A stretch of DNA of 64,000 bases from Arenicola marina (taxonomy: Eukaryota > Annelida > Polychaeta > Arenicolidae). This document shows, piece by piece, positions 11,901 through 44,668 of this stretch. How positions within the stretch are numbered: position 1 is the first letter of the stretch; every line of letters starts with the position of its first letter. The notes beneath the pieces are model-generated. The model had not been told where the DNA came from. It saw nothing but the letters and a program-made list of their open reading frames with translations, and searched no databases. A program made the position numbers and the translations under genes. Location of the stretch: positions 36,077,670 through 36,141,669 of the forward strand of contig OZ025248.1 of the NCBI GenBank assembly GCA_964019135.1, in the 5' to 3' direction.

Positions 11901-14900
11901 GCGACCGCTCAGAAGATAACATGCAGTCAGACCTCTTTTTAGCGACCGCTCAGAAGATTACATGCAGTCCGATCTCCTTATAGCGACCGCACAAAGGATT
12001 ATATATAGTCAGACCTCCTTATAGCGATCACTCAGAGGATTATATACTATCAGACCATTTTATAGCGACCGCTCAGGGGAGGAGATACAGTCAGACCTTA
12101 TAGCGACCGCCCAGGGGATTATATACACTAAGACCTCCTTATAGCGACCGCTCAGGGAGTGTTACGGTCAGACCTCTTTATACCGACCGCTCAATGGATT
12201 ATATACTGTCAGATATCCTTATACAAGTAGCCCTCCTTAAAGCGACCACTCAGGTTACTATACACAGTCAGACCTCCTTATAGCGACCTCTTAGGGATTT
12301 ATAGACGATCAGACCTCCATATAGCGATCACTCAGGGGACTATATACAGTCAAGACCTTCTTATAGCGACCGCTCAGGTGACTATACAGATTCAGACCTC
12401 CTTATAGCGACCGCTCAGGGTATTCAGTCAGACCTCCTTATAGCGACCGCTTAGCGGGCGATATAGTCAGACCTCCTTATAGCGACCGCTCATGAAAGTA
12501 TGTACAGTCAGACCTCCTTATAGCGACCGCTCATGGAAGTATATACAGTCAGACCTCCTTATAGCGACCGCTCAAAGGATTATATACACTCAGACTGTAT
12601 AGCAATCGCTCAGGGGAGTATATGCACTTAGACCTTATAGCGACCGCTCAGGAGATGGTATACTGTCAGACCTATATCAACCGCTTATGGGACGATATAC
12701 AGCCCAGAAAGTTAAACAATTGATAGTTGAATACCAATTTTCGCTAGAGCAGGTTTGATTGTTCTTTATCCGTGTCCTCGTTTCTGTTTCTCCACTTTGA
12801 TGTCTTACGTGTCAGTCAGTGTCTTCCAACGCATAACCTAATTGTGCATACTCGTTATAATTTACTCTAGATGCATGGGTATACATGTAAATAGAAAATC
12901 TGGGTTTTAACTTAACAAATTGGCCGAGGTGTTGGGACACATATTCTGGGGACCCTTTTGACCGGTGTGGATGTTGGGTTGCGATCACAATCTTCATGGG
13001 TTGGTTCTGTAGCCTTCGGTGGGAGATTACATCAACTTATCAGATCCCTGTGGCGTTTAGTATTGAACCGACTCATTTCTTGGCAGCGATGTAACACATG
13101 ATTGTAATAGTGTAGGAAGGGGAGCATGAGAAAGGCGGGGGTTGGGTCTGGTACCCCAGAGCCGCGTTCAGATAAGCCAGCTTGCACAGCTTCTTCATAC
13201 CACGTGATCACGTGACGTAACATCACGTGATCATGTATGACGTGTGACATCACGTGATCATGTATGACGTGTGACATCACGTGATCATATATGACGTATG
13301 ACATCACATGATCATGTGGCTTCGGATGTCACCTGCACCAGCGAGCTTGCCTATATTATCTCCTCTTGACCAGTAAGATAGCGAAACCAATTCGCAAGAC
13401 ACGAGTGCTATAAGTTCTTTGCATGGCTCGCTGTCAACTTTCGACTTCACGCAACGGATGATTCCTTGTTTACAGACGCTGCTTTTAGGATTGCTCTTCC
13501 AGATGCCCCCTTCCCTCCCCCTGTTTCCCCGCCTCTCGCAGGTCTCCCGCTGCTTACCCTCAAAGACCGCCCTTCTTTCTGAGAGCGGGGCTCACGAGTC
13601 GCCCTGACGTCACCGTGACGTTTGTTGTGGCTGTCATTCCTGACTTGCATCATTATAATGATTTACACCGATATTGTCGAATGATTATATTTTTCGTGTC
13701 ATTAACTGTCGGTTCGTTCTTTTTTTTCCTTTCTTCTCCCCGCGCCCCATCGTCCGACCCTGTGTTTCGTGTCCCACTAAACTCTTCTGCTCTTTTCCTT
13801 ATTTCGTTTTTGTACCCGTTTCGTTTTGTCCGTTTTTTTTTACTACCGTATTTCATCTCGTGCTTCTGTTTAAAAAAATCTCTTTATGCCTTTCACCGTT
13901 CCACGTCGTGTTTTTCCTGAATCTCCATACACCCACCCACTTCCTCCCCGTCTCCACCTCTCCCTTCCCCCACCTATCTCTCTATCTCTCGTGGGCTGTT
14001 ATACCCGCTATAACGTGTTCCACACCGACCAACCCTCATCTACTCCTACCCACCAACCCACCCACCCACCCACCCTTTGGTTTGTGTATCGGTCTGTCTG
14101 TGTGTCCTCGCCGCTGACGCATGCGCCGTAGGGCTGACGCACCGATCATGGGACATCTCTGGGAGTGCGCCATGGCTGATGAACACCACATGGGGTAACT
14201 GCCGCCACCGACCACCCCGCCCCCGCCCCACCCCGCCCCACCCCGCCTCGTCCCTTCTCCTCCAACCTGCAAGAGAACAAAACTCCTATCCAGTTATCAG
14301 CCTGTTTCTCCCTGACTTTCACGCCATCATAGCTTCTATGTCGTAGGCACATTTACATATTTGGCTAGTATATATGTGGTTATTTAGATTCCGCCACTGC
14401 TGTGTTTTTGATGTGTTCTCTTAAGTAGTAGTCATTTAAGCATTATTTGCCTTTTTTTAAAGTCTTTGCTTACTTACTATTTTGCAGTCTTATGACGTTG
14501 ATTTTTAGCATGTACATGTATCTATCTTTGTACGGCATTACGTTTTAATATAAATTTATTTGACAATCAAATTTTGTGTAAATATTATATTTCATGTAAA
14601 CGATAGAGGAGGTTACCCATGGGTTAGGTAATATGATCTAGTCATGTAAACTATTGTGATAGAGGAGGTTACCCATGGGTTAGGTAATATGATCTAGTCA
14701 TGTAAATTGTTGTCATAGAGGAGGTTACCCATGGGTTAGGTAATATGATCTAGTCATGTAAACTATTGTGATAGAGGAGGTTACCCATGGGTTAGGTAAT
14801 ATGATCTATTCAAGTAAACTAGTTTTGTAGAGGAGGTTACCCATGGGTTTAGTAATATTATCTATCCATGGAAACTAATCGCTTTTGTAGTGTTTAGCAA

Positions 14901-17900
14901 TGGCATTGAGGTCCACTTCCACTAATATTACATGTGGTGCATTTACATAAAAAAAGGATATATCTTTGGTGATGGGCTATAACGATAATTCTTCACTAAA
15001 AAATGTGGTAAATGTTAGATCTATATTAATAATAAATAATGTAACTTATGTCTTCAAACGAAAGTCATGCAGAGTATCATCTCGATTCCGTTTGAACCAG
15101 TTTATAAGATGAAATACTTTTAATTCCTAGATCTGTGTGCCATAACTTTATCATATGTGTAATGTTGTAAAGGTAATTCATGGAATATTTTCCTATAAGC
15201 GATGAACTTCTAGATGATGGGTTAATGCCTATATAACATACTGCGGGAGGCAGTCCGTTGGAGCAGACCACTATCTGTATCACGTATTGAACTGACTCGA
15301 TTTCAGATACCGCGAAGACGGACACGTGAAGGGTGAGCCTGAGTTTGCACCCCCCAACCCCATCCGACTCCAGTGGGAGATCCCGCAGCAGGTAAACCCC
15401 CAGCCAACCCCGCCGCCGCGTCGCCATGGTTACATTTATGTTCGTTTTGGTCATGGAATGTTGCCCACGTGTTCTTCGTAAGATGAAGAAACATCTCGAA
15501 GACTTACATAGGTATTTGCCTCCAATCAAAAAAACTCTGCGTTGTATGCTTAAATGAAAGATTAGCATTGGCCGTAGATAGAACTGTAAACTTTTCTTCA
15601 AATGTAATGGTAAATATGGCCGCGAAAATACATTTACCTTCACTGTTGATCGCGAATTCGAAGCTATCTGTAATGACGTCATAGATTTATTATGTAATTC
15701 ATTGACTTTAAAAAGTTTTAGCGATGTAGTGCAGACCCAAAGAAATGTTATAATGACGGCAACATGTTATCCTTATATCACACAGTGCCAGGAGGTGATA
15801 GATAACAGCCTGGCGGTGGCCCGTGACCTGCTCAATGACGTCGATCTCTACCTCATGATGCACGACGCCTTCGGCAAGGGACTGATGAAGAAGTGCAAGA
15901 TGAGTCCCGACGCCTTCATCCAGATGGCGCTGCAGCTGGCCTACTACCGGGTGAGCAGAACACCACGTGACAGTCACCTGGGCCTGACCCGCGTCCCCGC
16001 AAAGCATATAATAATATGCATAACCTGCTAAAACTTTGTCAGTGTATGCTGATACGTGGAAGGAAATATGTATCTCTTTTGGTGTATAGAAATTTAATAA
16101 TGGTTGCTATGTCATTAGTACGTTATTTTTTATATTTGTCCACATGATATTTAAGTACGATCTCGCCTTGTCCGCATAATATTTTAACCACAATCTCGCC
16201 TTGTCCACAACATTTTCTGACCAGCTATGTGTATCATTGTCGCCCGCAGGACGCCGGCAAGTTCTGCCTGACCTACGAGGCCTCTATGACGCGACTGTTC
16301 CGCGAGGGGAGGACAGAGACGGTGCGCTCTTGCACGGTGGAGTCCTGCGCCTTCGTCAAGGCTATGGAGGACAGGAGTAAGACGGTGAGTCCCTGCACAA
16401 CTAGACCTGCACCTGATATATTGTGGTCAAACTGGAGGACCTTCGTCTAGGGTATGGAGGACAGGAGTAAGACGGTGAGTCCCTGCACAACTAGACCTGG
16501 ACCTGATATATTGTGGTCAAACTGGAGGGCCTTCGTCAAGGGTATGGAGGACAGGAGTAAGACGGTGAGTCCCTGCACAACTAGACCTGCACCTGATATC
16601 TTGTGGTCAAACTGGAGGGCCTTCGTCAAGGGTATGGAGGACAGGAGTAAGACGGTGAGTCCCTGCACAACTAGACCTGGACCTGATATATTGTGGTCAA
16701 ACTGGAGGGCCTTCGTCAAGGGTATGGAGGACAGGAGTAAGACGGTGAGTCCCTGCACAACTAGACCTGCACCTGATATCTTGTGGTCAAACTGGAGGGC
16801 CTTCGTCAAGGGTATGGAGGACAGGAGTAAGACGGTGAGTCCCTGCACAACTAGACCTGCACCTGATATATTGTGGTCAAACTGGAGGACCTTCGTCAAG
16901 GCTATGGAGGACAGGAGTAAGACGGTGAGTCCCTGCACAACTAGACCTGCACCTGATATATTGTAGTCAAACTGGAGGGCCTTCGTCAAGGCTATGGAGG
17001 ACAGGAGTAAGACGGTGAGTCCCTGCACAACTAGACCTGGACCTGATATATTGTGGTCAAACCGGAGGGCCTTCGTCAAGGCTATGGAGGACAGGAGTAA
17101 GACGGTGAGTCCCTGCACAACTAGACCTGCACCTGATATATTGTGGTCAAACTGGAGGGCCTTCGTCAAGGCTATGGAGGACAGGAGTAAGACGGTGAGT
17201 CCCTGAACAACTCGACCTGGACCGGATATATTGTGGTCAAACTGGAGGGCCTTCGTCAAGGCCATGGAGGACTGGAGTAAGACGGTGAGTCCCTGCACAA
17301 CTAGACCTGAACCGGATATATTGTGGTCAAACTGGAGGGCCTTCGTCAAGGCTATGGAGGACAGGAGTAAGACGGTGAGTCCCTGCACAACTCGACCTGG
17401 ACTTGATATATTGTGGTCAAACTGGAGGGCCTTCGTCAAGGCTATGGAGGACAGGAGTAAGACGGTGAGTCCCTGCACAACTAGACCTGGACCTGATATA
17501 TTGTGGTCAAACTGGAGGGCCTTCGTCAAGGCTATGGAGGACAGGAGTAAGACGGTGAGTCCCTGCACAACTAGACCTGGACCGGATATATTGTGGTCAA
17601 ACTGGAGGGCCTTCGTCAAGGCTATGGAGGACAGGAGTAAGACGGTGAGTCCCTGCACAACTAGACCTAGACCGAATATATTGTGGTCAAACTGGAGGGC
17701 CTTCGTCAAGGCTATGGAGGACAGGAGTAAGACAGTGAGTCCCTGCACAACTAGACCTGGACCGGATATATTGTGGTCAAACTGGAGGGCCTTCGTCAAG
17801 GCTATGGAGGACAGGAGTAAGACGGTGAGTCCCTGCACAACTAGACCTGGACCGGATATATTGTGGTCAAACTGGAGGGCCTTCGTCAAGGCTATGGAGG

Positions 17901-20900
17901 ACAGGAGTAAGACGGTGAGTCCCTGCACAACTAGACCTGGACCGGATATATTGTGGTCAAACTGGAGGGTCTTCGTCAAGGCTATGTAGGACAGGAGTAA
18001 GACGGTGAGTCCCTGCACAACTAGACCTGGACCTGATATATTGTGGTCAAACTGAAGGGCCTTCGTCAAGGCTATGGAGGACAGGAGTAAGACGGTGAGT
18101 TCCTGCACAACTAGACCTGGACCGGATATATTGTGGTCAAACTGGAGGGCCTTCGTCAAGGCTATGGAGGACAGGAGTAAGACGGTGAGTCCCTGAACAA
18201 CTCGACCTGGACCTGATATATTGTGGTCAAACTGGAGGGCCTTCGTCAAGGCTATGGAGGACAGGGGTAAGACGGTGAGTCCCTGCACAACTAGACCTGG
18301 ACCTGATATATTGTGGTCAAACTGGAGGGCCTTCGTCAAGGCTATGGAGGACAGGAGTAAGACGGTGAGTCCCTGCACAACTAGACCTGGACCGGATATA
18401 TTGTGGTCAAACTGGAGGGCCTTCGTCAAGGCTATGGAGGACAGGAGTAAGACGGTGAGTCCCTGCACAACTAGACCTGGACCGGATATATTGTGGTCAA
18501 ACTGGAGGGCCTTCGTCAAGGCTATGGAGGACAGGAGTAAGACGGTGAGTCCCTGCACAACTAGACCTGGACCGGATATATTGTGGTCAAACTGGAGGGC
18601 CTTCGTCAAGGCTATGGAGGACAGGAGTAAGACGGTGAGTCCCTGCACAACTAGACCTGGACCGGATATATTGTGGTCAAACTGGAGGGTCTTCGTCAAG
18701 GCTATGGAGGACAGAAGTAAGACGGTGAGTCCCTGCACAACTAGACCTGCACCTGATATATTGTGGTCAAACTGGAGGGCCTTCGTCAAGGCTATGGAGG
18801 ACAGGAGTAAGACGGTGAGTCCCTGCACAACTAGACCTGGACCGGATATATTGTGGTCAAACTGGAGGGCCTTCGTCAAGGCTATGGAGGACAGGAGTAA
18901 GACGGTGAGTCCCTGCACAACTAGACCTGGACCGGATATATTGTGGTCAAACTGGAGGGCCTTCGTCAAGGCTATGGAGGACAGGAGTAAGACGGTGAGT
19001 CCCTGCACAACTAGACCTGGACCGGATATATTGTGGTCAAACTGGAGGGTCTTCGTCAAGGCTATGGAGGACAGGAGTAAGACGGTGAGTCCCTGCACAA
19101 CTAGACCTGGACCTGATATATTGTGGTCAAACTGGAGGGCCTTCGTCAAGGCTATGGAGGACAGGAGTAAGACGGTGAGTCCCTGCACAACTAGACCTGC
19201 ACCTGATATATTGTGGTCAAACTGGAGGGACTTCGTCAAGGCTATGGAGGACAGGAGTAAGACGGTGAGTCCCTGCACAACTAGACCTGGACCGGATATA
19301 TTGTGGTCAAACTGGAGGGTCTTCGTCAAGGCTATGGAGGACAGGAGTAAGACGGTGAGTCCCTGCACAACTAGACGTGGACCTGATATATTGTGGTCAA
19401 ACTGGAGGGCCTTCGTCAAGGCTATGGAGGACAGGAGTAAGACGGTGAGTCCCTGCACAACTAGACCTGGACCGGATATATTGTGGTCAAACTGGAGGGT
19501 CTTCGTCAAGGCTATGGAGGACAGGAGTAAGACGGTGAGTCCCTGCACAACTAGACCTGGACCTGATATATTGTGGTCAAACTGGAGGGCCTTCGTCAAG
19601 GCTATGGAGGACAGGAGTAAGACGGTGAGTCCCTGCACAACTAGACCTGGACCTGATATATTGTGGTCAAACTAGAGGGCCTTCGTCAAGGCTATGGAGG
19701 ACAGGAGTAAGACGGTGAGTCCCTGCACAACTAGACCTGGACCGGATATATTGTGGTCAAACTGGAGGGCCTTCGTCAAGGCTATGGAGGACAGGAGTAA
19801 GACGGTGAGTCCCTGCACAACTAGACCTGGACCGGATATATTGTGGTCAAACTGGAGGGCCTTCGTCAAGGCTATGGAGGACAGGAGTAAGACGGTGAGT
19901 CCCTGCACAATTACACCTGGACCGGATATATTGTGGTCAAACTGGAGGGTCTTCGTCAAGGCTATGGAGGACAGGAGTAAGACGGTGAGTCCCTGCACAA
20001 CTAGACCTGGACCTGATATATTGTGGTCAAACTGGAGGGCCTTCGTCAAGGCTATGGAGGACAGGAGTAAGACGGTGAGTCCCTGCACAACTAGACCTGG
20101 ACCTGATATATTGTGGTCAAACTGGAGGGCCTTCGTCAAGGCTATGGAGGACAGGAGTAAGACGGTGAGTCCCTGCACAACTAGACCTGGACCTAATATA
20201 TTGTGGTCAAACTGGAGGGACTTCGTCAAGGCTATGGAGGACAGGAGTAAGACGGTGAGTCCCTGCACAACTAGACCTAGACCGGATATATTGTGGTCAA
20301 ACTGGAGGGCCTTCGTCAAGGCTATGGAAGACAGGAGTAAGACGGTGAGTCCCTGCACAACTAGACCTGGACCGGATATATTGTGGTCAAACTGGAGGGC
20401 CTTCGTCAAGGCTATGGAGGACAGGAGTAAGACGGTGAGTCTTTGGCCTTTGACGGTGTTTTCATCTCTGGTCTATTACACTGTCACCGTGTCACTGCAT
20501 GAGCTTCAGGCTCGGGATTCAGGTGTTTCATATTATATACATTTATATCTATTCATCTAATTGGCCCGGGATATTCCTTGGTCTGGTCTTATTTCCATGG
20601 TCCAATTCAGCCCCTATGTGCACTGAAATAGGTGGCCTACAGCACCAATCATTGACTTATTGATATATTGATTCTTTGATATATTGATTCTTTGATATAT
20701 TTATTCTTTGATATGTTGATTCTTTGATATATTGATTCTTTGATATATTGATGGATTTTTTGATATATTGATTCTTTGCTATATTGATGGATTGTTTGAT
20801 ATATTGATTCTTTGATATATTGATGGATTGTTCGATACATTGATTCTTTGATATATTGATGGATTGTTTGATATATTGATTGTTTGTTTGATTTATTCAG

Positions 20901-23126
20901 AACGCTGAGCGGATCTCACTGTTGCAAGCGGCCTCGGACGCCCACCAGGATGGCTACAGGCGAGCCATGACCGGCAGCGGCATCGACAGACACCTCTTCT
21001 GTCTCTACGTCGTCTCCAAGTACCTGGGCATCGAGTCGCCCTTCCTGAAGGAGGTGCTCAGCGAGCCCTGGCGACTCTCCACCAGCCAGGTACCCAAGCC
21101 CTCGGCTGCCATGGTCATCTGCAAAACAAATGACCTGACACGCCAGCCTTTCTGTTTTGCTTTGGAATGTAATGTTATTCATAATCTATATATATGTGTG
21201 TGTGTGTGCTGAGAAAAAGTAGGCTTATGTTTGTTACTGTTATTAATATATACAAAATAGAAAATTTTATATTTGTCGCAAAAGTAATTTCTTTTTATTT
21301 TGGGTATCATTTATTACTTTATTATTCCTTCATCATTGTGTTAATTGTGTAAGATTGATAATGATGTTGTCATTATAGCATCTCCGTGCGAGAAGTGAGT
21401 GGCTTTGTAACGATCTCAGTGGAACATAGTGCATAGTATCTGAGCGTTGAGGCCTCCTTAAATTGTAACCCACAACCAGCCCCATCGTATCTTGTAGACT
21501 CCCCATCAACAGACCGAGAAGCTGGACTTAGCCAAGAACCCGGATCTGATCTCGGCCGGAGGTGGCTTTGGCCCGGTAAGTCATTAATCTTGAGGTCCAG
21601 GGACTGGGACCCGCCGTGTCGCCCAGGCGGCAGCAGACCAGCAGACAGCGGATTGCTCTCTAGATCCGCATTAAGGAATGAGACGACAGCGAAATATTTT
21701 GAAATTGGAAGCGTAAATTAATGTTATAATTTAATTAATTAATCTTAACGTTTAATGTCGGTGATTATTTTTGTTTCGGGCACGCCTTGTGCTGAGGCTT
21801 TTATGTTCATTGCTGGCTTTGGTTATTAGTCGCGTGACGTTTATTGTTACGGTGTTTGCATTCTCTCCCGCTAGGTGGCGGACGACGGCTACGGCGTCTC
21901 GTACATCATCGCTGGCGAAAATGTCCTCTTCTTCCACATCTCCTGCAAAAGGAACTGCAACGAGACGGTGAGACCGCGTGGTGTATGGGCCTTGATGTGA
22001 TGGATTATGGGCCCTGAAGTAATGCATTTTGGGCCTTGATGTGATGGATTATGGGCCCTGAAGTAATGGATTATGGGCTCTAGTAATGGATTATGGGCCC
22101 TGTAGTAATGCATTTTGGGCCCTGTATTGATGGATTATGGGCCCTGTAGTGGTGGATTATGGGCCCTGAAGTAATGCATTATGGACTCTGTAGTAATGGA
22201 TTATGGGCCATGTAGTAATGGATTCTGGGCGGTATAGTGATGGATTCTGGGCGGTATAGTGATGGATTCTGGGCCCTGTAGTGATGAATTATGGGCCCTG
22301 TAGTGATAGATTATGGGCCCTGTAGTGATAGATTATATGCCCTGTAGTGATGGGTGATGGGCCCTGTAGCGATGAATTATGGGCCCTGTTGTGATGGATT
22401 ATGGGCCCAGTAGTGATGGATTATGGGCCCTGTAGTGATGGATTATGGGCCCTTCTAGTGATGGATTATGGGCCCTGTAGTGATGGATTCTGAGCCCGTT
22501 AGTGATGGATTCTGAGCCCGTTAGTGATGGATTATTGGCCCTGTAGTGATGGAATATGGGCCCTGTAGTGATGGAATATGGGCCCTGTAGTGATGGATTA
22601 TGGGCCCTGTAGTGATAGATTCTGAGCCCTGTAGAGATGGATTCTGAGCCCTGTAGAGATGGATTATGGGCCCTTCTAGTGATGGATTATGGGCCCTGTA
22701 GTGATGGATTATGGGCCCTTCTAGTGATGGATTCTGAGCCCGTTAGTGATGGATTCTGAGCCCGTTAGTGATGGATTCTTGGCCCTGTAGTGATGGAATA
22801 TGGGCCCTGTAGTGATGGAATATGGGCCCTGTAGTGATGGATTATGGGCCCTGTAGTGATAGATTCTGAGCCCTGTAGAGATGGATTCTGAGCCCTGTAG
22901 AGATGGATTATGGGCCCTGTAGTGATGGATTATGGGCCCTGTAGTGATGGATTATGGGCCCTGTAGTGATAGATTCTGAGCCATGTAGAGATGGATTATA
23001 GGCCCTGTGTTTATGTTTATGTCTGTCGTTACACCCGTCCCCCTCCCCTGCCAGGACTCCCATCGCTTTGGCCGCGGCATCACCAAGGCCCTGGACGACC
23101 TGCGACAGCTGTTCACCTCGTCCTAG
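2790..23126 (+). CDS. CPT1: Carnitine O-palmitoyltransferase 1 (CPT1), spliced gene, 5'-truncated by window edge
   Basis: CPT1 moves long-chain acyl groups from CoA to carnitine at the mitochondrial outer membrane and is inhibited by malonyl-CoA. Exons (my labels), all GT-AG with matching phases: A 2790-2964, B 3379-3480, C 3988-4125, D 5229-5306, E 5887-5994, F 6460-6544, G 7037-7151, H 7438-7594, I 8087-8134, J 8765-8872, K 9150-9175, L 10947-11012 or L' 14132-14194, M 15307-15391, N 15786-15950, O 16250-16384, P 20901-21089, Q 21498-21575, R 21875-21967, S 23055-23126. With exon L they join to about 673 codons plus stop and align end to end with animal CPT1 from the second membrane segment: [19 protein letters not shown], the catalytic [36 protein letters not shown] and [16 protein letters not shown]. 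The first membrane segment and N-terminal regulatory domain are upstream of the window. Identification is by recognised family similarity; no search was run. Confidence 0.97.
3379..3480 (+). CDS. CPT1: CPT1 exon B
   Basis: 34 codons in phase 0 on both sides, acceptor TTGTTGTAG, donor gtaagt. It encodes [20 protein letters not shown] and then PKLPVPAL, the conserved SYQxSLPxLPVPA block at the start of the carnitine acyltransferase fold. Confidence 0.93.
3988..4125 (+). CDS. CPT1: CPT1 exon C
   Basis: 46 codons, phase 0. Encodes [20 protein letters not shown] to LKSWWATNY, the conserved VRPLM and KSWWATNYV blocks. Acceptor GCGCCCAG, donor gtacgt. Confidence 0.94.
4307..4368. repeat. Inverted repeat / hairpin in CPT1 intron C-D
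   Basis: The 18-nt arm CGGGGCTTAGTCGGCTAA (4307-4324) pairs with TTAGCCGACTAAGTCCCG (4351-4368) with one G:U-compatible mismatch, separated by 26 nt. Confidence 0.8.
4680..5217. repeat. 31-bp degenerate minisatellite in CPT1 intron C-D
   Basis: Repeats of tagcatggcatatctctac plus tagatggccgta, diverged, with internal duplications. The array ends about 12 bp before the acceptor of exon D. Confidence 0.9.
5229..5306 (+). CDS. CPT1: CPT1 exon D
   Basis: 26 codons, phase 0: [20 protein letters not shown] then SNYYGV, a hallmark CPT1/CPT2 segment. Acceptor TGTTACAG, donor gtgcgt. Confidence 0.94.
5887..5994 (+). CDS. CPT1: CPT1 exon E
   Basis: 36 codons, phase 0, ending REELEP. Matches the family's ARAxNxIxAxLxYRRxxxREEI block. 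Acceptor TTGGCAG, donor gtcagt. Confidence 0.93.
6121..6247. repeat. 30-bp repeat, four units, with CACGTG
   Basis: atatgatcac/gtgacgtacc motifs recur at 6141, 6171, 6201 and 6231. Three of the four units contain CACGTG (CCACGTGA or TCACGTGA). Confidence 0.85.
6460..6544 (+). CDS. CPT1: CPT1 exon F
   Basis: 85 nt, phase 0 in and phase 1 out. Encodes [20 protein letters not shown] then TRIPGVET; the PLCSxQxERxFNTxRIPG block is typical of CPT1. Acceptor CCTCCAG, donor gtaact. Confidence 0.92.
7037..7151 (+). CDS. CPT1: CPT1 exon G
   Basis: 115 nt, phase 1 in and phase 2 out. Encodes [20 protein letters not shown] then [18 protein letters not shown]; the HIVVYHxGRYFKV block is diagnostic. The polypyrimidine tract is an uninterrupted run of about 20 C (7015-7034) just before the AG. 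Donor gtgagc. Confidence 0.95.
7438..7594 (+). CDS. CPT1: CPT1 exon H
   Basis: 157 nt, phase 2 in and phase 0 out. Encodes [37 protein letters not shown] and [10 protein letters not shown], aligning with the PGExxLAALTAGDRxPWAxxR region. Donor gtgaga. Confidence 0.94.
8087..8134 (+). CDS. CPT1: CPT1 exon I
   Basis: 48-nt exon, phase 0: [16 protein letters not shown]. It follows the SLDAIEK of the previous exon as expected for CPT1 (family AAFFVTLD). Acceptor CCTCAG, donor gtgagt. Confidence 0.9.
8586..8745 (+). mobile_element. tRNA-like SINE fragment (tentative)
   Basis: A tRNA-like head with a B-box-type motif GGTTCAAACC (8633-8642) is followed by a non-tRNA tail. The A-box is poor. It sits in CPT1 intron I-J after a C-rich tract. 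It could be a diverged SINE or chance. Confidence 0.35.
8765..8872 (+). CDS. CPT1: CPT1 exon J
   Basis: 36 codons, phase 0: [20 protein letters not shown] then [16 protein letters not shown]. The [15 protein letters not shown] block is a CPT1 signature. Acceptor TCCACAG, donor gtacgt. Confidence 0.95.
9150..9175 (+). CDS. CPT1: CPT1 exon K, 26-nt microexon with the catalytic His
   Basis: Acceptor TTGTTTCAG and donor gtatgt bracket only 26 nt, phase 0 in and phase 2 out. It reads IGFNGEHS plus TG of the split Trp codon. The His (codon 9168-9170) aligns with the general-base His of carnitine acyltransferases (NAEHSWAD in mammals). It joins to exon L or L', both of which supply the G that completes Trp. 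Confidence 0.93.
9176..9789 (+). other. CPT1 intron K-L, unique AT-rich part
   Basis: Intron sequence after the catalytic microexon with no conserved frame. I see no feature other than short AT runs around 9290-9310. Confidence 0.5.
9790..10840. repeat. 29-bp minisatellite with CCACGTGG, about 35 units
   Basis: The unit is aacgctgccacgtggtccg plus gggtttatat (29 bp, e.g. 10263 to 10292). A variant reads gagccgtgtcatgtggttcg. Most units carry CACGTG inside GCCACGTGGTC, alternating with tataTAA. It ends about 110 bp before exon L. Confidence 0.95.
10947..11012 (+). CDS. CPT1: CPT1 exon L (alternative version 1 of the post-catalytic-His segment)
   Basis: Acceptor CCTTTCAG and donor gtaggc; 66 nt, phase 2 in and phase 2 out. 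Encodes [20 protein letters not shown] then LG, following GEHSW and preceding YREDGHVKG. Its 22 residues equal the mammalian length. A homologous exon with the same phases lies 3.1 kb downstream (14132-14194), so the two are probably alternatives. It lies just after a 29-bp satellite. Confidence 0.9.
11683..12715. repeat. 41-bp minisatellite, about 25 units, between the alternative CPT1 exons
   Basis: The unit contains cagtcagacctccttatagc, gaccgctcag and aggattatata. It becomes more diverged with indels after about 12000. It lies in the 3.1-kb interval between exons L and L'. Confidence 0.95.
13195..13316. repeat. 27-bp palindromic repeat, about 4 units
   Basis: catcacgtgatcatgtatga recurs at 13221, 13248 and 13275. 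Each unit includes the palindromes TCACGTGA and TGATCA, so the array can form cruciform or hairpin structure. It also lies between exons L and L'. Confidence 0.9.
13490..14100. other. Pyrimidine-rich block upstream of CPT1 exon L'
   Basis: About 600 bp very rich in C and T on the plus strand (ccccctgtttcccc, cttttttttcc, cccacccacccaccc). It leads toward the acceptor of exon L' at 14131. It may act as an extended polypyrimidine/PTB-type region; that is inference. Confidence 0.6.
14132..14194 (+). CDS. CPT1: CPT1 exon L' (alternative version 2 of the post-catalytic-His segment)
   Basis: Acceptor GCCGTAG and donor gtaact; 63 nt, phase 2 in and phase 2 out. Encodes [20 protein letters not shown] then G. 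It shares ADAPIxxHLWE with exon L and then diverges, with one residue fewer. Both splice sites are intact and the frame is open, so it does not look like a dead duplicate. Insect CPT1 genes are known to carry an alternative exon pair covering 21 residues of a substrate and malonyl-CoA binding region. Confidence 0.88.
14590..14875. repeat. 56-bp minisatellite, 5 units
   Basis: gaggaggttacccatgggtt recurs with exact 56-bp spacing (ggttaccc at 14611, 14667, 14723, 14779, 14835). Confidence 0.95.
15307..15391 (+). CDS. CPT1: CPT1 exon M
   Basis: 85 nt, phase 2 in and phase 0 out. Completes Gly and encodes [13 protein letters not shown], then [13 protein letters not shown]. Matches the family's YAEDGHCKG...PTRLQWDIP. 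Acceptor GATTTCAG, donor gtaaac. Confidence 0.94.
15786..15950 (+). CDS. CPT1: CPT1 exon N
   Basis: 55 codons, phase 0: [20 protein letters not shown] to [20 protein letters not shown]. The FGKGxxKKCxxSPDAFxQxALQLAxY block is highly conserved. Acceptor CACACAG, donor gtgagc. Confidence 0.96.
16250..16384 (+). CDS. CPT1: CPT1 exon O; its 3' end seeds the 90-bp satellite
   Basis: 45 codons, phase 0: [20 protein letters not shown] then [20 protein letters not shown]. Binding-site residues [10 protein letters not shown] and TETVRSCT are present. The residue that I align with rat CPT1A Met593, implicated in malonyl-CoA sensitivity, reads Val; this alignment is from memory. The last 34 nt and donor gtgagt (16385) are the first copy of a 90-bp tandem repeat that continues to 20440. 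Reading past the first donor meets TAG at 16448-16450. Confidence 0.95.
16351..20440. repeat. 90-bp minisatellite spanning the exon O 5' splice site, 46 donor copies
   Basis: The gacGGTGAGT (or gacAGTGAGT) donor recurs every 90 bp from 16381 to 20431 with no indel. Each unit starts with the last 34 nt of CPT1 exon O (cttcgtcaag, gctatggagg, acaggagtaa gacg), then gtgagt and about 50 nt of intron. Scattered SNVs (accggata/acctgata, ggtatg/gctatg) form higher-order patterns. ORFs on both strands, including one of over 1000 codons on the minus strand, follow from the 90-bp period. Confidence 0.98.
20655..20895. repeat. 16-bp AT-rich tandem repeat
   Basis: Repeats of ttgatatattgattct with variants inserting gatgga. 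It runs to within about 10 bp of the exon P acceptor. Confidence 0.9.
20901..21089 (+). CDS. CPT1: CPT1 exon P
   Basis: 63 codons, phase 0. Contains [20 protein letters not shown] and EPWRLSTSQ; the STS triad belongs to the acyltransferase active site. Acceptor TTTATTCAG, donor gtaccc. Confidence 0.97.
21498..21575 (+). CDS. CPT1: CPT1 exon Q
   Basis: 26 codons, phase 0: [20 protein letters not shown] then GGGFGP, the conserved GGGFGP loop near the acyl-chain pocket. Acceptor CTTGTAG, donor gtaagt. Confidence 0.95.
21875..21967 (+). CDS. CPT1: CPT1 exon R
   Basis: 31 codons, phase 0: [20 protein letters not shown] then [11 protein letters not shown]. Matches [25 protein letters not shown]. 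A 22-bp satellite begins shortly after the donor gtgaga but does not include it. Confidence 0.96.
21985..23010. repeat. 22-bp minisatellite, about 45 units, in CPT1 intron R-S
   Basis: The unit gtagtgatggattatgggcc plus ct, with variants (attctgagcc, gaatatgggc), starts about 20 bp after the exon R donor and nearly fills the last intron. Confidence 0.95.
23055..23126 (+). CDS. CPT1: CPT1 terminal coding exon S
   Basis: Encodes [20 protein letters not shown] then TSS and stop TAG (23124-23126). The DSHRFGxxxxxALxDxxxLF ending is normal for CPT1. Acceptor CCTGCCAG. Confidence 0.95.
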   Translation, partial: DSHRFGRGITKALDDLRQLFTSS

Positions 23127-23620
23127 CAGACCACGTGACCGGGGCTGGCGACTCCAGGGTAAGGGTGGCACCACCCCTTCCCACGATGCAGCGCGCGGTT
23201 TTGGAGTGGGTCGAGTCAGTGAGTCGCGCCGTGGTGAAAAACACCCAAGCGGTATCAGCTCCCGCGCTGTTCACGCTTGCTGAGTGACCACGCGCCACTC
23301 CGATCATGCTGTGTGAAACATGCGGGAGGAAAACTAACGGAAACAAGCGCAAGTTACTCACTTGAGACCTGACAAGTCCCTCCCGTTTCATACTCTGTCT
23401 AAGCCTCGTCGTGATGAGGTCTGAAGCTAAATCGTCCATCGCTATAAACTGTCGTAACCCGTTCTCAGGATGGACACGGGCGACTCGATCACGTGGGTCG
23501 CCGGCCCGTCACGTGACAACTTTGTTGAATTGCGTTATATTCATGTTAATTGTTTTATTTTTAAGGCCAAGCGAACTAGCAAGCAAGCAATGCAATAAAA
23601 AACACAACGTTCGTGTTTGT
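23127..23620 (+). other. CPT1: CPT1 3' UTR (inferred extent)
   Basis: Follows the CPT1 stop with no continuing conserved frame. A canonical AATAAA at 23594-23599 makes this about a 0.5-kb UTR. The real cleavage site is unverified. Confidence 0.6.
23594..23599 (+). terminator. CPT1: Polyadenylation signal AATAAA of CPT1
   Basis: First canonical hexamer downstream of the CPT1 stop, followed within about 25 nt by a GT/T-rich stretch (cgttcgtgtttgtt). Confidence 0.6.
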
Positions 23621-23629
23621 TAATACTTA

Positions 23630-25880
23630 AGATGTGATATCCGTTTGTACTCAAAGGGTCGCTGAGATAGTGAGACTCTCGCGCAATGTACTGTCGTTGT
23701 GTTCTCGCCATCGGGGCCGGGCAATGATTCGGAACGTTACCATGGCAACACTAACTACCCAGAACTGAAGTTGTAACGTTTTGGTCGAAGCCTATTGAAT
23801 TTGAAAATGTATAATACATCAAATTAAATTATAATGCGCTTTTGGGGACCACCAGGGGGTTGATTTTTAGGGTCGTTTCCATGACAACCACTTTGAATAG
23901 GACCACGATTGGGGTCATTGCTATGACGACGAAGTCAACCCGGACGCGGGGGATGATGACATGAGCTGGTGTCGGTGGTCCAGAGCGTGTTGCTTTGAGA
24001 GAGTTTTCCATACGTGGAACTGATTAACATTAATACCTTTTTTGGAGTTTACAACGTGTGTTCTTTGAAAGTTGCGTGTGTTACGAACATAGAGTGTTCA
24101 GCTGTTAGTAAGTACGACGTTTGTGGTTGGTTTGTTTGTAGTTAAACATATAGCGTGGGACTGATTGATCTAAATACCTGGTTGACCCCCGGGACCCATG
24201 CGTGGCCCCCCGGGGGAGCAAGAACCATGGGATAGAAAAATAGTGTTAGGGATAACAGCGTCTTCGTTAATCTTCCCAATTAAATATTATTGTCACAACG
24301 AGTTTTACCGCCTTTGAATGCTCAGTGTTTCGGGAAAAGTCCACCACAGAACTGGATCTGAGGGTTTTCTTATGTTTTTTTTTCATTGTGAAATTTAGGT
24401 GTTATTAACTTGTATCAGATCATATGGAATCTATCAACCAGTAGAAATATGGGTGAAATGAACGAAGTCCTGTTTTATCCTTGTATTGCGTGAAATCACT
24501 GAAGATTTATTTATCTTGTCCAGGGTGTCTATTTTAGCTTTAATGGTTGTCTTTCGTGCAAAGAAACAGCGGTACTTGAAGTAGTATCCAAGTCTACTAA
24601 TCAGATTCCATGATATTTTTTTTAACTTTGTGAATTCCTGTAGAATCGGCGGCAATCTTACTATGAAACGTTCTTTCGCTTTTAAAGTGTTTTTTTAAAG
24701 TATTACGTATATTGCCTTTAATATTCTTTTATCGCAGTTCCTCGCCATATTAGCAAAACAATTTATGATCTTATATATATAAATATATACATGAATATAT
24801 GTATGAAAAAAAGACGCCCCTTAAATAGTAGTCATATCGGATTCACATTCTGCAACTATCGCCACTTTTTACGTTTTTCGTTGCCTTCTAGTAAAACGGC
24901 AAATGCGTAGGTGTGATAATCATTGCTTTGAGTTCACTGTGGCACAATCTCGTTGTAATTTGTATGACGCCCAGATATTTTATTTAATTTCACTCGCACG
25001 CCCTATATGTTCTGTAAGTTATAAATTATTGCCTATATGTTACAGAAATGGCTGGATATCTATGTGGGACCTGCCTGACCGTGTCAACGGCCCCAACTTG
25101 ACTAGAGCAATATCCCTTGATAAATATGTGCGATGTGAGAGATGCATCAGCGTGTCTTGCCTGGTGGGCGATAATAGGTGTCTGGTTGATGAGGTGGAAT
25201 TTTCCCAGGAATAATTAACTGAGCGTGCGTGAAATGGTCGTGGCTGGAGTGATTGTTTGATCTGATGTTACATGAGGTTTTCACATGGCCTATAGAATCA
25301 TTCCCAAAATTGGGTTGAGTAGAGACACAGCTCTTCTGTCTTTTCGCGTGTTGTGAGGTCTACTAGCTATATATAGTTTTGACCTTTGACCCGCATGCAC
25401 CCATTCGCCGTGCGAACAACGCCTCTCCCAAAGGCCGACACGACGCCTGATCTGTACAGCGTTTGGGTGAAAACCAGTCTTGTGTGTATATACTTCGGAT
25501 AGGAAATCGTTAACGTTATTATAGGAAATACATGTATAATGGATTGGATGGAAATAAAACGTTTGGATTTGATAATGGTCTCCGTTGTGGTTACTTACAT
25601 TTACGAAGTATTCTTTGTTCCCCACGTGTATGGTTTTTGTCGAACATGGCAACGGGCTGAGACTCCCGAGCGATACATATGTCTCTAAACAACAAAATAT
25701 TCCACATTTGATTACAATATCGCGACGGAAATATTTCATACATATTTCTAAAGATCGCAATAGTATACTAATTATTTAAAGCAGTCACGGGATTTCACTC
25801 ATTACTATCGTATTTTCCCGCCAACAAGTCTCTCCACAAAAAACAACCGACTTATAAACCGAAAAACCCTGTATACAGCA
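23630..25880. other. Intergenic DNA downstream of CPT1
   Basis: AT-rich with no protein frame I recognise. A GC palindrome lies around 24186-24220 (ccccgggacc...ccccccgggg). A 103-codon frame at 24903-25214 has an acceptor-like TTACAG inside it but no recognisable family. Confidence 0.5.
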
Positions 25881-25981
25881 GCTCTCGTCATTCATCACAC
25901 ACTGCAAGCAAGGCGTCGTCTGAGGTATCTGTGCACCAGCATTTTATTGTTTAACCATGGGAAATACATCGTCTCGGCAGG
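25850..25981 (+). promoter_or_regulatory. Possible TATA promoter and short first exon (MGNTSSRQ)
   Basis: A cttataaacc TATA-like element (25851-25860) lies about 100 bp before ATG in a good context (aaccATGG, 25956). The ATG opens MGNTSSRQ, then CAG/gtttgt could be a donor (about 25980). MGNxxS is an N-myristoylation signal. No downstream exon was recognised, so this may be chance. Confidence 0.2.
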
Positions 25982-25989
25982 TTTGTATA

Positions 25990-28330
25990 TCCACTGTACA
26001 CCGAACCACGAATGTCTCATGACATGAGCACCCCCCAACGAGTATTATATGGGTAATTTTTTCTATAAAAGAAAAGAGAAGACATTTAACATTCACAACA
26101 CGCACGCGAGACAAACTATACGTGTGGAAAAATTGTCAGTCAGATCTCACATGAATGGATACGGCATTTATCTAAAGCTAATTTTAAATTTGACAGTCAT
26201 AATTGTTACAAAACCGCTACTTGCAACTACAATTTCCACGATCGTAATCCGTAATGTCTAGAATCCAAATTTTAAAGTGTTTAATATAGCTTTCCAGAAA
26301 CAAATTTTGACAACCTGATTGTGTGGTTTGCAATTATAAAATTATAGAAGGTATTTTATTTACTTTGTATTGTTTTTAGCATGGATGCAAAAGCTTCTTA
26401 CAGTTACAGAAGGCGATATCAGACCCTCTTCAGTTTTAAAATCTTACAGAGGGTATAGTGGTTCGCGGAGAAAACCTACCAGTGCATAACTACGTGATTT
26501 TATAATTTTTTAAGAGACTAATTGCTCTGCCGTGACAACATGACGCGATTTGGAAACACGTTGCAACACTACCTGATTACACATCTACAACTGTTGTTCT
26601 TACAAGTATATTATACGCTACATTGTACATTTATTCACAGTAACAGTACAAGTAATAAAAGTATATATCTGGAAATCGTGTAAGTATAATAAGGTCAAAA
26701 TATAGAGATAGCAACATCCATCCTATGGTAGCGGTACCGCTGCTAGCTGACCAGGAGTGCTATTTGAATAAAAACCGAATTAGGTCAAAGAGGCGGTTGA
26801 AATAATCCCCCATCATTGCGCGAGTTCCTACAAAGAATTTATAGAACAAATTCATACAAAGAATTTATAGAACAAATTCATACAAGTTCTTTGGTTCCTA
26901 TAAAAATACCAAGCGATATTTGAAGATACTGGGCATTTAGGACTCCTATGGCCACATAGTACCAGACCTCTCAATTTCAGCTGTTAAGTATAAAGAACTC
27001 ACATATCTCAACGATAACATCCCACATCATATACACACGCATCAAAAGTTAATATTTCAATCATTTTAACACCCATGGCGAACACGCCAGAACAAGGTTC
27101 CGCCGCTCCATTGTCTCTGACCAGGTTGTGATCGGATAAGTCATTAAGGTAAGCTATCCATAATAGCAAGGTAAAAGAACTCTGTATTTGTGATTATTTC
27201 ATGATAGTATACCCAATAACACACATTCTGGTGAATTAATAGGATACTTTACCGTCCCGTTAAAAAAATATTCTCCATTTACTAAGTATACCCCATTTCA
27301 CAAAATGATCAAAACGTGACACCTACCACGAATATGTAATTTTGCTACAATTCAGCTTAATATTAAGTCATTATCATCAGTAATAGCTCTTTGGAAAGCT
27401 TAAACCTAGTGCAATACAGGAATGATATTTAAAAATGGAAATAGTAGCCACAAAAAATAACAGAATGGTAATAATAAAGTGCAATTATGCAAAATCAGGA
27501 CAGAAATTCGAAATCACCACCTTCACAAAATTGGCTATAACTTCATCAAAAATGAAAATCTTGACACCAAATAACTTTAAAAAACTTCTAACAACATCGT
27601 TCTTGTAATAAAAATAAAGAAAAATATAGGTAGCCGTGCAAATTTCCCGAGAAACAAGTCCTGAAGCTTGAAAATGTTATTTCACAATCATTTTTTGGCG
27701 CAGCTTTTGTCACACCAATTATCAGTAATTTACGCCTTGTGTTCACATTTTAATAAATCTGTTTATATATAATGGTCTCCGATATAATTATGATTTACAC
27801 GAATGTTTTCTGAACTATTTATAGGTTTTCTCGATGCCTTTTTCTTGAATTTTCCGAATTTATTACGAAGATTCATTATCGGGGAAATACCTTGTGAATG
27901 ACGTAACCAGTTGGGGATTCCTCTTTCACTGACACCCGCCGATGTTTGTCGATGTTTACCGAGGTATTTTCTAAATCGCAGAAGCTTATTATACGATGCT
28001 CTATTTATTTTACCTATGTCACCACTTCTTTTGCTGTGTTTTATTCGTGCTTTAGCCTTTATTCGGGCTACAGCCCGCCGATGTTTGCCGATGTTTACCG
28101 AGGTCTGCTCAAAATTGCCGAGGCTTATTATGGGTAGCTTACCTTAAAACATCGCCGACTGTACATCGAGAAGTTAAAAAACTTCTCAGCGTCAAATCTC
28201 GCTCGGTACGCAATGTCATATTCAGGCCCTATTTACACCTTCCCATTTCATAATCTGTGCCACACAGGAGGTAGACCTTCCCTGCCATATAAATCGTAAA
28301 GCGCAGATATCCCTTAAACACATGGAAAAG
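25990..28330. other. Intergenic AT-rich DNA
   Basis: No gene is supported. A 26-bp direct duplication lies at about 26835-26882 (caaagaatttatagaacaaa ttcata). A diverged direct duplication of about 130 bp lies at 27930-28140 (ccgatgtttgtcgatgttta ccgaggt, then ccgatgtttgccgatgttta ccgaggt). Confidence 0.6.
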
Positions 28331-28350
28331 TGAGCATCAAAGATAAAGTA

Positions 28351-28438
28351 TGACGTCATCACAACGTGACTTCGCGTGACGAATCAAATATGACGTCATC
28401 GCACTGCGCGCAAACGCGGCGGATAAAATATGACGTCA
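28351..28438. promoter_or_regulatory. Three perfect CRE palindromes at 40-bp spacing
   Basis: TGACGTCA occurs at 28351-28358, 28391-28398 and 28431-28438, each preceded by an A/T stretch ending in AT or GTA. This is the CREB/ATF consensus. The location is intergenic between the convergent genes. Possible degenerate 40-bp repeat, enhancer or promoter. Confidence 0.5.
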
Positions 28439-28449
28439 CAACACAGTGA

Positions 28450-31400
28450 GATCACATGATGCGGCTCAGATGTTCATGGCCAGTGAGAAAATCTCGCACA
28501 TTATTCTAGACGCAGTCGAAGAAATTTGGTACAGGTAGAGTTTCGTTTCGTTTGGTTTTGTTCTTATAATATAAACAAGACTGAGACATTTGATACAACT
28601 AGCAGTTCATACAACGAAGAATAGTACAACCAATCGTCAACAACATTAGGTACCTGTGCAGGACTGCTGCCCTATATACACGCCTGGTTAGGGTTCTTCA
28701 TTACTGGATACACGTGCCCCTCGCGTAGAGATTCAACCGCGGGGGTGTCACCAGCATCAACAACAAACTTAATTTGTACAATCAACAACCACACACCGGC
28801 ATATATATCGGCTTGGGTAGGGGGGTAGTTAGTAATTCAGCTGGAGAATAATTAAGGGATCAAATGAATTCGTTGAGATTCCAACCTGAGGCTCTTGAGT
28901 ATTTCCTTCTCGTCGGCAGCCTTCCCTTGAACACTATTTTAAGTTGCGAAGCGTTAATTATTCAGCAGTTGTCCCGCTATTCTCCACAACCAATTTCGAA
29001 TTGATTTGTTAATTTTTTTTACAGCGATTACGAACGGTCTCACCTAAATAGCTTGCTTTTCGATTCGGGATTCATTGCAAACCATTACATATATATCGCT
29101 GTGGACTTGAACACATGATCAACGGTATAACCTCTTTGTTAGTCTAGATTTCCAGTATGAACTCTTTGAGTAGCGTAGGCCGCTCTCACTATAACACAAA
29201 CTGTAAACTCCACCTAGGATTGTCTGAGGCATTGCTACGAAATTCTTTACGATTCGCGCTGAGTGTCACTAAAACAGAAAATCTATATACAGATGTAAAC
29301 GGGAAAAAAGGGGTGGAGGCCAAACACATAACTGTTCCCACTTTGAACACAGTGTATTGTATAGATATTTGAATTTTGGTTTGCTTTGTGAGTACTATGA
29401 AAATAAAGACAGCAGATATAGATATCTGTACACGTCAGAATCTCCTATACTTACGGCGTGGGTGTCAATATACTGCAATACGCCCTGTGCTTATATTATG
29501 TACAAGGCAGTGGGTACCTCGTGGCACGTTACTGCAGCTCCACCCCACCTGTCCATATATAACTGACATACGGGGTCCTAGAGGGCTCGTCCGCTATGAA
29601 TGGTGGGGCTGCACTGGAGATGAGTTAAAAACGTTAAAAACGTATGTTTCTACGCCCGATATCAGAACCAAATACCTAAATGGACCTAAATACTGAAAGT
29701 CTTTCCCTCCTTCCTTTCAACCGTAGTCTACAGTGTTTGTGCTTACAAGCTTGGGTAGAGTTTGTCGTCAGCTGCGGAAGAAAATGGAAAAAAGCAATTA
29801 TTTTATATCCTTGACATGAAGTACAAAATAGACGACGCTACACTAGGATACCATGCTCCATATAGAGCTGGTTCCATGTCACTTCTCTGACGTCACAAAA
29901 CAAGATGCAGGTGAACGAAAAAAACATCCCTCTTAATTCGACTAACCCGTCGCCACTTTGCCACATGCCATATCTCATCAGTCACTGAGTGGTCAGTGCA
30001 GTTCCTTTATCAATCTTTGTACAACAAACACTGATTCTTTTCTGTATGTATTTCGCAACTAAACGCATTGCATTTCACATTCAGAGTCAAAATCTGCTGC
30101 ATATGCAAATCGTCAGTCGCCATGCAGTGTTAGGCTCTCACTAAAATCCGATTCTCTTTGACGAAGGCTCGGAGCAAATATAGCATGCCTGAAGTAGCTG
30201 CTCTTATTCATGCTCAAACCATATTCAAACACGCGTCCCAAGTGGACGCGTCACGCAACCCTTTTTCTCCCTTGAAACCTTGATATTAAACCCTTTACAA
30301 CTGCTACAAACGGGGGGAAACGACGGCCCTGTTTTTCTGTCTGAGTGGGAAGGCGTCACGTGGTCAACGCGGCTCTCCTCTGCCCTCGCGCAGTCTGTGG
30401 ACCAAATCTCGCGAGAAGCACCAACTCTCGGGAGCAGCTGGCCGCGGGTGTCAACGGTAAAAACGTGGCAGCTGAGAAACTGTAACTGGGCGCCATGGGT
30501 GGAGGTATTAGACCCAGTTGGCCCCCTTGTCATCCGGGTGAGTGGTTTGGTTATCATGCGCGGCGTCGGGGGCGCATAGTGTAGTGTTCCGTGCATCTTA
30601 AAGATCGATCTTAAAGATCGATCTGTCGACCAATACAGTTTAGACACGGGAACCGGAAATGGAGTTCCCTTTATGACCTGTCTGAGTGCAGATGTCCTCA
30701 TGAATATGTTAAAGATATTGAAGTATTTTTCTTCCAAAAGTCATGTCCGGATCTTAATTTGTAACACATTATGGCCTGATTAGTGCAAGAATTATCTATT
30801 GTGATCACTATCAGTCATTGCCTGAAGCCTGTTCAGCATCCCTAACTGTATGCCACAAATCAGTGAACTACACAGAAAGCTGCGACGTATTAAACGTAGG
30901 TTCCAATTAACTATCAGCTGTCAGGCAAAAAACAATGTTTCTGCCATTTCTATCAATACCTCTGCATTAAATGATACAGTTCTGTTAAATGTGAAGGTTA
31001 GTATTTCATTGCAGAATTTAATGCGTAATTTGTTCTAATTGGTGGGAAAAAATATCTGTATAAGTAACTTCAATATAGGTTTATTCACTTTCGACATTAC
31101 ATAGAAATCATGGTTAATGCTAGGTAAATAAACAATGCAGTCATACCACAGAGCACTAAGTAAACCTAATGTCCATACAAGCCAAGGCAAGATTCATCAC
31201 TGGCATACGAAAACAAGGCGTTGGTGGACATACCGAGGCATGCCAAAATAAATCAAGTTACACATCTACTTACATCCTTGACGACCAGCGAGGTCACACT
31301 CTAGGCTGTAACAGTAGCATTAATACAAGACAGTAAGCTAAAGCAACTTCAAAACAAACATAAGCAAACATTGAAAGCACACGCAGGAGAAAAATGTACC

Positions 31401-32160
31401 CGGGTTTACAGTGTAATCGGGTCACACATTAAAGCAAGCAATCGCCGAACTCAAGCTCTGATTGAAGAGGAACGTTTAGTCCAGGCCGATTGCTTATCAC
31501 AAACCATGTGGACCAACTTTGTTTTCCAAAAGAAAATAGTGATTTCTGCCCAGCAAATTAAGTGAACTGCATGAAACACGCAATGAAAATCGAAAACCTA
31601 AGTGATTGAGATGCAAGACATATGGCAAGTGGCAATGAGAATAAACCGAGTACATTTAAACTGAAACTCAACGCGATATGGCATGTGGCAACGCGGATAA
31701 GGCAAGTGGCAACGAGAATAAGGCAAGGCAAAAAAACAAACAGTTGTCGCAAAAAATAAACCCATTCCGCAATAATGCAATAACGCAAATACATTTTGTA
31801 GTACGATATATACAGGATGTTATTGATTGCGCAAAGGCTTTTGATAGCTTAGGGAGAGGCACGCTCTGTACAGACGTCATATACCGTCTGATCAATGAAC
31901 GTTATACAAAGAAACATGAGTACATGAAACATGAGCAAAAGAGAAGCGTTTGACAGTGTTGCAAAAGCAGTCCGTGTCAGCGGTTGGTCCGTCAAGGAGA
32001 ACGAGAGAATTTTCCTTCCTTGTATCAGTCACTTAATTCTCACACGTGGAGGTTAAAATGTACAGATTTTGTGAAGCATCCCGGTAAAGTCCCATGTTAT
32101 ATATTCACATGATCTGTGGTAATAAACGTGTACCGAATATATACCAGAATCGAAATGAGT
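28450..32160. other. Intergenic DNA between CPT1 and EAAT 3' ends
   Basis: No supported gene. Small direct repeats occur at 30600-30622 (aaagatcgatctt twice) and at 31615-31730 (gcaagtggcaacgagaata variants). A 91-codon frame at 31678-31953 includes DCAKAFDSL, faintly like a reverse-transcriptase motif, without other RT motifs. Confidence 0.5.
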
Positions 32161-32169
32161 ATACTAGAA

Positions 32170-32175
32170 TTTATT
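32170..32175 (-). terminator. EAAT: Candidate polyadenylation signal of EAAT
   Basis: AATAAA on the minus strand, about 400 nt past the EAAT stop at 32576-32578. Other hexamers further away are possible. Confidence 0.35.
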
Positions 32176-32575
32176 GAACTGACCTAAACAAAATAAGTAT
32201 CCAACTGTCCACCAAACACTGATAAAATGAAAATACACCTAAACGTCCATGGGACAAAATATCCCAAGTAAATACACCCGGACTGAATAAAAATAAGAGA
32301 CCACGAAACTACTTCAGACAGTCAAGGGCAACCTGTTTTTTTATAGTTTTGTCGATATCTAAAATCTGACCTCGCCTCCTGTCAATGCCACGTCAATTCG
32401 CTCTTCGTCATGGATGAATTGTGTCTGTCATAGTCTGCAAACGGCGCACGATTGTAGTGTTTGTGTTTGTGTGGAGGGGGAGGGGGTGGGTATCACCGCT
32501 GTACACATTGGTTAACGCTGGCCAATGATTTAGGCGTTTGGGATTTGTCAGTGTGATAAATGACGCGCATTGGCG

Positions 32576-44164
<11,589 letters not shown>

Positions 44165-44608: not shown

Positions 44609-44668
44609 ATCCACAGTCTGGATGATGGTAAGAACATAGTAGCAAAGATATTACAATATATTTGATAG

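Follow-up and report, generated by a model that had tools for sequence, protein, structure and literature searches.

Junction-spanning minisatellites favour 5' over 3' splice sites in sampled genes of an annelid

Tandem duplications that take in an exon's last bases, the adjoining 5' splice site and the beginning of the intron recur in unrelated genes of the annelid Arenicola marina. Tandem copies of the splice junction lie at 17 of 98 sampled donors and at 3 of 87 acceptors (Fisher p=0.0035), and the starts of tandem arrays pile up in exon tails. It is this pile-up, together with the donor/acceptor asymmetry, that forms the proper evidence for a class of donor-linked arrays. Behind the pile-up we infer a mutational hotspot linked to transcription or splicing, and we expect splicing to stay normal. 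A donor-linked duplication hotspot, combined with splicing that tolerates extra downstream donors, fits the data best, and we put the probability of this reading at about one half.

The window analysed is a stretch of 64,000 bases (C1:36077670-36141669) from a genome of 867 Mb in 762 contigs. It holds a CPT1 gene and an SLC1/EAAT glutamate-transporter gene, both modelled with a protein-to-genome alignment script. Array sizes in the window are TRF values, and copies of the splice junctions of these genes were sought with a 22-nt junction probe (12 exonic and 10 intronic bases, up to 5 mismatches, within 5 kb on either side). The features are:

2790..23117, + strand: CPT1 gene, 20 exon models including two alternative ones, with two further exons upstream of the window
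16250..16384, + strand: CPT1 exon ending ...AMEDRSKT, whose donor GTGAGT is the first copy of the 90-bp array
16349..20441, + strand: 90-bp array of 45.5 copies, including 36 exonic bases and filling most of a CPT1 intron (TRF and junction probe)
21984..23008, + strand: 22-bp array filling CPT1 intron 21968-23054, a contrast case that does not span the junction (TRF start 16 bases past the donor)
32645..43624, - strand: SLC1/EAAT glutamate-transporter gene, from conserved exons
33554..33765, - strand: 93-bp duplication, two copies, across the donor of EAAT exon 33753-33887, with about 13 exonic bases (probe)
40074..40911, - strand: 32-bp array of 27 copies across the donor of EAAT exon 40895-41021, with 17 exonic bases (TRF and probe)
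41495..41819, - strand: 71-bp array of 4.6 copies across the donor of EAAT exon 41806-42025, with about 14 exonic bases (TRF and probe)

Among the best 120 of 3832 protein matches to CPT1, the named relatives of highest identity are Capitella (75%) and Owenia and Ridgeia (72%). For EAAT (best 120 of 8000), they are Capitella and Dimorphilus (72%) and Lamellibrachia (71%); the top bit score in the same set belongs to a fish entry (788 residues, 62% identity), and a nematode entry (739 residues, 56% identity) scores near the annelids. Amphioxus was ruled out as the source of the sequence, the named CPT1 and EAAT relatives with most identity being mostly annelid. Two alternative CPT1 exons, at window positions 10947-11012 and 14132-14194, look mutually exclusive, since both encode the same segment. 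Compared with the two further copies of the gene, the first EAAT copy seems to carry two frameshifts (41806-42025 and 43427-43624), through either sequence error or decay; exon models of this copy were set by homology to the other EAAT copies. Window positions 44462-44605 resemble what we take to be a tRNA-derived short interspersed element, with a GGTTCGA-type box on the - strand, and a stretch near 39158-39258 is similar to this putative element.

All four junction duplications that the initial annotation had placed at donors of these genes, one in CPT1 and three in EAAT, are present by TRF and the 22-nt probe. Their description as arrays holds for the units of 90, 32 and 71 bp; the 93-bp case has two copies and forms no array, with a single extra junction copy found 93 bases on from the donor. 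At the donor of CPT1 exon 16250-16384, in turn, the probe detects 45 further junction copies spaced 90 bp apart. Each full unit of this array shows 0 to 4 differences from the consensus, and the last unit is partial. In all four cases, the first copy is the donor predicted to yield a protein like that of the relatives. The proposed link to donors stands as a bias and is not exclusive: CPT1 exon 2 (C1:36076350, window position -1319, 1.3 kb upstream of the window) carries a 56-bp duplication across its acceptor. An apparent third, decayed copy of this acceptor duplication lies further upstream.

The initial annotation had argued that four such overlaps among 28 exons are improbable by chance. 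This argument fails because tandem repeats (period 15-200) fill 43.7% of the CPT1 and EAAT intron bases (14486/33136); TRF repeats with a period of at least 10 make up 26% of the 264 kb around the window. Junction overlaps would be common at such a load if exons put up no resistance. As the argument rested on the wrong null, splice sites were sampled elsewhere. The sample comprises 98 donors and 87 acceptors from five gene families of the one genome (donors/acceptors: CPT1 21/21, EAAT 7/8, CCT2 7/8, SLC6 51/38, myosin 12/12). SLC6 (PF00209) is represented by 40 stretches around Pfam matches, part of 98 matches, and the myosin head (PF00063) by 12 stretches out of 77 matches; these stretches lie on 14 contigs and were picked by their Pfam matches alone, without prior sight of the sequence. 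CCT2 is the presumed identity, from its peptides, of a gene of the region. Exon ends outside CPT1 and EAAT were set with a finder based on codon usage and splice scores, together with homology; third codon positions are G or C in 82.5% of the 1246 CPT1 and EAAT codons, and the finder recovered 12 of 18 listed internal CPT1 exons exactly. Fourteen junctions at eight loci (L038, L041, L047, L050, L051, L052, L056 and L067) were entered by hand. Excluded were predicted exons without a family peptide (L034 1135-1197, L065 459-554, L071 760-816 and two within the L073 array), acceptors of first coding exons, the L051 acceptor, an unclear L052b donor, one SLC6 exon in L066 missed by the finder, the EAAT copies at 54-58 kb and 100-108 kb, and other predicted exons of the 264-kb region. 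In L051 (C1:34627850-34629230), an SLC6 exon opens with bases (AAATGGCGGAG) that match those with which the previous exon closes in paralogues, and the intron may have slid. In the myosin region (C4:367768-371306 and C4:380231-383133), profile positions of about 590-640 are matched four times and those of about 110-154 four times, which suggests clusters of mutually exclusive exons.

In this sample, the junctions were probed with 20 nt (10+10, up to 4 mismatches, within 400 bases). The excess of donors over acceptors, which had been expected genome-wide, is seen here across the five families, at the counts given above. It persists outside CPT1 and EAAT (13/70 donors against 2/58 acceptors, p=0.011), and outside the window genes with four paralogous SLC6 exons removed (10/66 against 2/57, p=0.035). 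Over seven probe settings, 15 to 20 of the 98 donors and 3 of the 87 acceptors have tandem copies, with p values from 0.0005 to 0.0065 overall and from 0.003 to 0.036 outside CPT1 and EAAT. All 88 donor copies detected in this sample at distances of up to 400 bases are on the intron side of the junction. The class thus recurs, as anticipated, in unrelated genes on other contigs, namely SLC6 transporters and a myosin. The units at SLC6 donors measure 39, 45, 47, 48, 49 and 133 bp, with 37 bp in three paralogues of a single contig, 65 bp in two paralogues and 57 bp in a case with one weak copy; one myosin exon donor has a 62-bp unit. The overlap of the 45-bp SLC6 case with its exon is only about four bases. 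The junction probe detects zero copies at the seven CCT2 donors, where a looser run test flags one exon end. The acceptor cases are CPT1 exon 2, L041 and L067. The last of these, an SLC6 gene (C14:21665650-21667000), has a 75-bp acceptor array; in the stretch inspected, its upstream copies read CAC and the working acceptor CAG, as if decoy acceptors had been disabled.

We compared the positions at which arrays start and end. Around the 98 donors, TRF places the starts of 33 arrays in the span from -60 to +320: 17 fall in the 60-base exon tail, 9 at intron positions 0-60 and 7 at 60-320 (binomial test against uniform, p=2e-6). Outside the window genes and with paralogues collapsed, the same bins hold 10, 6 and 1 starts (p=6e-5). 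The looser run test counts 23 starts in the 60-base exon tail, 12 at 0-60 and 21 at 60-320. The density of starts in exon tails therefore exceeds that of the inner intron about tenfold by TRF and about fivefold by the looser test. Near the 87 acceptors, most TRF arrays finish before the exon: 2 end inside it, 9 within the 60 intron bases next to it and 16 deeper in the intron. Donor-tail starts are about fourfold denser than array ends inside these introns (16 per 260 bases, 87 acceptors). Array coverage across the donor is flat or slightly lower at the junction (17/98 against 21-25 of 93-97 at +50 to +230), which counts against a hotspot; on this measure, donors merely fail to hold arrays back. 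The pile-up could stem in part from short ancestral introns or from slower decay of copies that carry conserved exon sequence.

Several parts of the region occur in more than one copy. A gap of 200 N bases (53668-53867) is followed by 6.9 kb (53868-60749) that repeat 39788-46660 at 98% and are probably an assembly overlap or a second haplotype. Two of the EAAT donor arrays occur a second time in this stretch:

54155..54992, - strand: second occurrence of the 32-bp donor array (TRF)
55575..55899, - strand: second occurrence of the 71-bp donor array (TRF)

A more diverged EAAT copy lies about 65 kb downstream, with aligned pieces 86 to 95% identical, and has all three of the 32-bp, 71-bp and 93-bp donor duplications, the 71-bp array there being interrupted by other sequence. 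Donor duplications common to both EAAT copies are thus older than the split of these copies. Array copy number has changed since the split; the CPT1 array has 45.5 and 64.4 units in two copies that may be alleles or paralogues. On a larger scale, about 75 kb occur twice in tandem, from window position 16349 to about 101 kb past the window end (C1:36094018 to about 36243300), with pieces at 82 to 96% identity. The second copy starts at the left edge of the 90-bp array, without N bases at that point, and the tandem may represent either a real duplication broken at the 90-bp array or a haplotype mis-join.

In the hotspot reading, the last few to about 50 exon bases, the 5' splice site and some intron bases would be tandemly duplicated, and the duplicated unit would then be multiplied and homogenised like any minisatellite. 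Births of arrays would be concentrated at real donors, above the level inside introns. Donor arrays would persist because the exon-proximal donor, which is transcribed first and lies nearest the exon's own acceptor, still gives normal mRNA, and the donor copies downstream would do little harm. Acceptor arrays would put acceptor copies upstream of the right one and may consequently be retained less often. An R-loop as the seed, as had been suggested for these arrays, is not borne out by the GC skew of the first 100 intron bases, which is 0.020 at donors with arrays (n=17) and 0.047 at those without (n=81, p=0.69); the GC content of the exon tails is 0.586 and 0.559, respectively. Replication slippage linked to splicing, the other suggested seed, stays a candidate mechanism. 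No microhomology or fixed intronic length could be resolved at the unit boundaries, where estimates of the extension are ambiguous inside arrays. We advance tentatively the broader proposal that working 5' splice sites are a genome-wide hotspot of tandem duplication in this lineage, coupled to transcription or splicing and not to DNA sequence, by which the 3' ends of exons would be rewritten into introns and introns would grow from their donors.

We think it less likely, though still plausible, that tolerance suffices without any donor-linked birth: duplications would arise everywhere, or in GC-rich exon-like sequence, those in exons and at acceptors would be purged, and those at donors would survive through the first donor. 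The high repeat load described above (26% of the 264 kb and 44% of CPT1 and EAAT intron bases) speaks for this, as do the flat per-position rate across the donor and an apparent in-frame repeat within an SLC6 exon (L060). Strong donors are moreover over-represented among arrays, with a score of 5.97 against 4.75 at donors without arrays (p=0.011), which would be expected if the first donor must win. Tolerance on its own does not, however, account for the uneven starts, with 17 per 60 exon-tail bases against 7 per 260 intron bases by TRF (23 against 21 by the looser test), nor for the fourfold excess of the donor tail over array ends inside introns near acceptors. The higher score, by which array donors come closer to the consensus, would also suit an event directed by sequence, in which an endonuclease, a transposase or an introner-like element cuts AGGTRAGT and staggered repair creates the first duplication. 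The final partial unit of the CPT1 array, consisting of the exon tail and seven intron bases, as though filler sequence separated two copies, also points this way. We nevertheless regard such an event as improbable. Among 90 further arrays from the region, a donor-like motif lies in the first unit 8 times on the + strand and 9 times on the - strand, where 7.3 and 5.9 are expected; stricter cut-offs give 3 against 4.1 (+) and 2 against 4.0 (-), and then 1 against 1.1 and 0 against 1.3. The link is thus to working donors, and the motif alone does not attract arrays. Every sampled array copies its own exon tail, which argues against a mobile source, and a capped genome-wide search with two 90-bp units, in which common words are skipped, gave among the 60 matches listed only their own locus and a copy 71 kb away, with no dispersed matches.

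Positive selection could retain the additional donors, perhaps as a reserve of U1 binding sites that protects long introns; in 10 of 14 arrays, the donor core (-3..+6) does vary less than the other unit positions (more in 3, with 1 tie). This difference is not significant (sign test about p=0.09, with paralogues among the 14), and the GT is changed in many copies of certain arrays: the G differs in 38% of those in L033, and 15 to 19% are affected in the EAAT 32-bp array. Such losses in some copies indicate that downstream donors are neither clearly kept nor purged, and we read the donor copies as evolving near neutrality. Other introns of the same genes lack extra donors, and we hold selection for them to be about as improbable as a sequence-directed cut. 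Least probable of all is an artefact of mis-assembly or misplaced exon ends. The N gap with its 98% repeat shows where the assembly may be at fault, and the exon ends outside CPT1 and EAAT come from our own finder and homology, 14 of them by hand. Against this, array units have diverged (mean per-base variation up to 16%), the EAAT donor duplications recur in the downstream gene copy at 86 to 95% identity, and exon ends fit conserved protein, for example ...KNGG in SLC6 paralogues with and without arrays. The donor-linked hotspot with tolerant splicing is the preferred reading.

At about one donor in six of the sampled annelid genes, mirages, as such repeats are called in amphioxus, become a countable class. 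They provide a natural experiment, in which introns open with up to dozens of near-identical donors and correct mRNA is expected from the first alone. This allows tests of first-come or exon-definition choice of donors, and of a possible mutational mark of splicing or transcription on the genome. It also bears on the lengthening of introns and on a possible sliding of exon ends or intron positions.

We compared the annelid arrays to other systems in which tandem repeats and introns have been linked. Among the titles and abstracts listed by a literature search that covered few subscription journals, none reports junction-spanning repeats in an annelid or a genome-wide donor bias. Earthworm metallothionein introns contain minisatellites (PMC12783039), which resemble our arrays as large tandem arrays in an annelid intron that differ between gene copies; in the part of that source cited here, copying of the exon-intron junction is not reported. 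Intron gain by duplication of AGGT, known from vertebrate ATP2A1, fission yeast and the potato RdRp according to the sections cited (PMC4974935), likewise involves a local tandem duplication that copies splice signals. The annelid arrays, in contrast, lengthen an existing intron, and a new intron is not seen. Intron gain by this route, raised in the initial annotation, does not fit the SLC6 genes, because the boundary ...NGG is the same in paralogues with junction copies (L045, L046, L048, L055) and in those without (L047, L050, L052, L056, L060, L061).

The likeness to amphioxus mirages that had been noted for the window was right. The term was coined there for tandem repeats over exon-intron boundaries, 5' and 3' alike, and the passages cited describe them in Adh3, the globins BflGb6 and BflGb9, troponin C and PGBD5, with units of 10 to about 160 bp, many of them with AG/GT copies, and with variable copy number (PMC3087553, PMC3902484). 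In the papers cited here, mirages are single cases from one chordate group; according to the passages, regular splicing seems undisturbed, with support from RT-PCR. Our arrays agree with them in spanning the boundary (at 17/98 donors and 3/87 acceptors), in units of minisatellite size (junction spacings of about 32 to 133 bp) and in affecting both 5' and 3' boundaries. They differ in their annelid host, in their frequency of about one sampled donor in six, in their donor bias and in the pile-up of starts in exon tails. Whereas splicing was followed by RT-PCR in amphioxus, use of the first donor in the annelid is a prediction from homology. By their structural features, the annelid arrays are mirage-type minisatellites, set apart by their phylum, frequency and donor bias.
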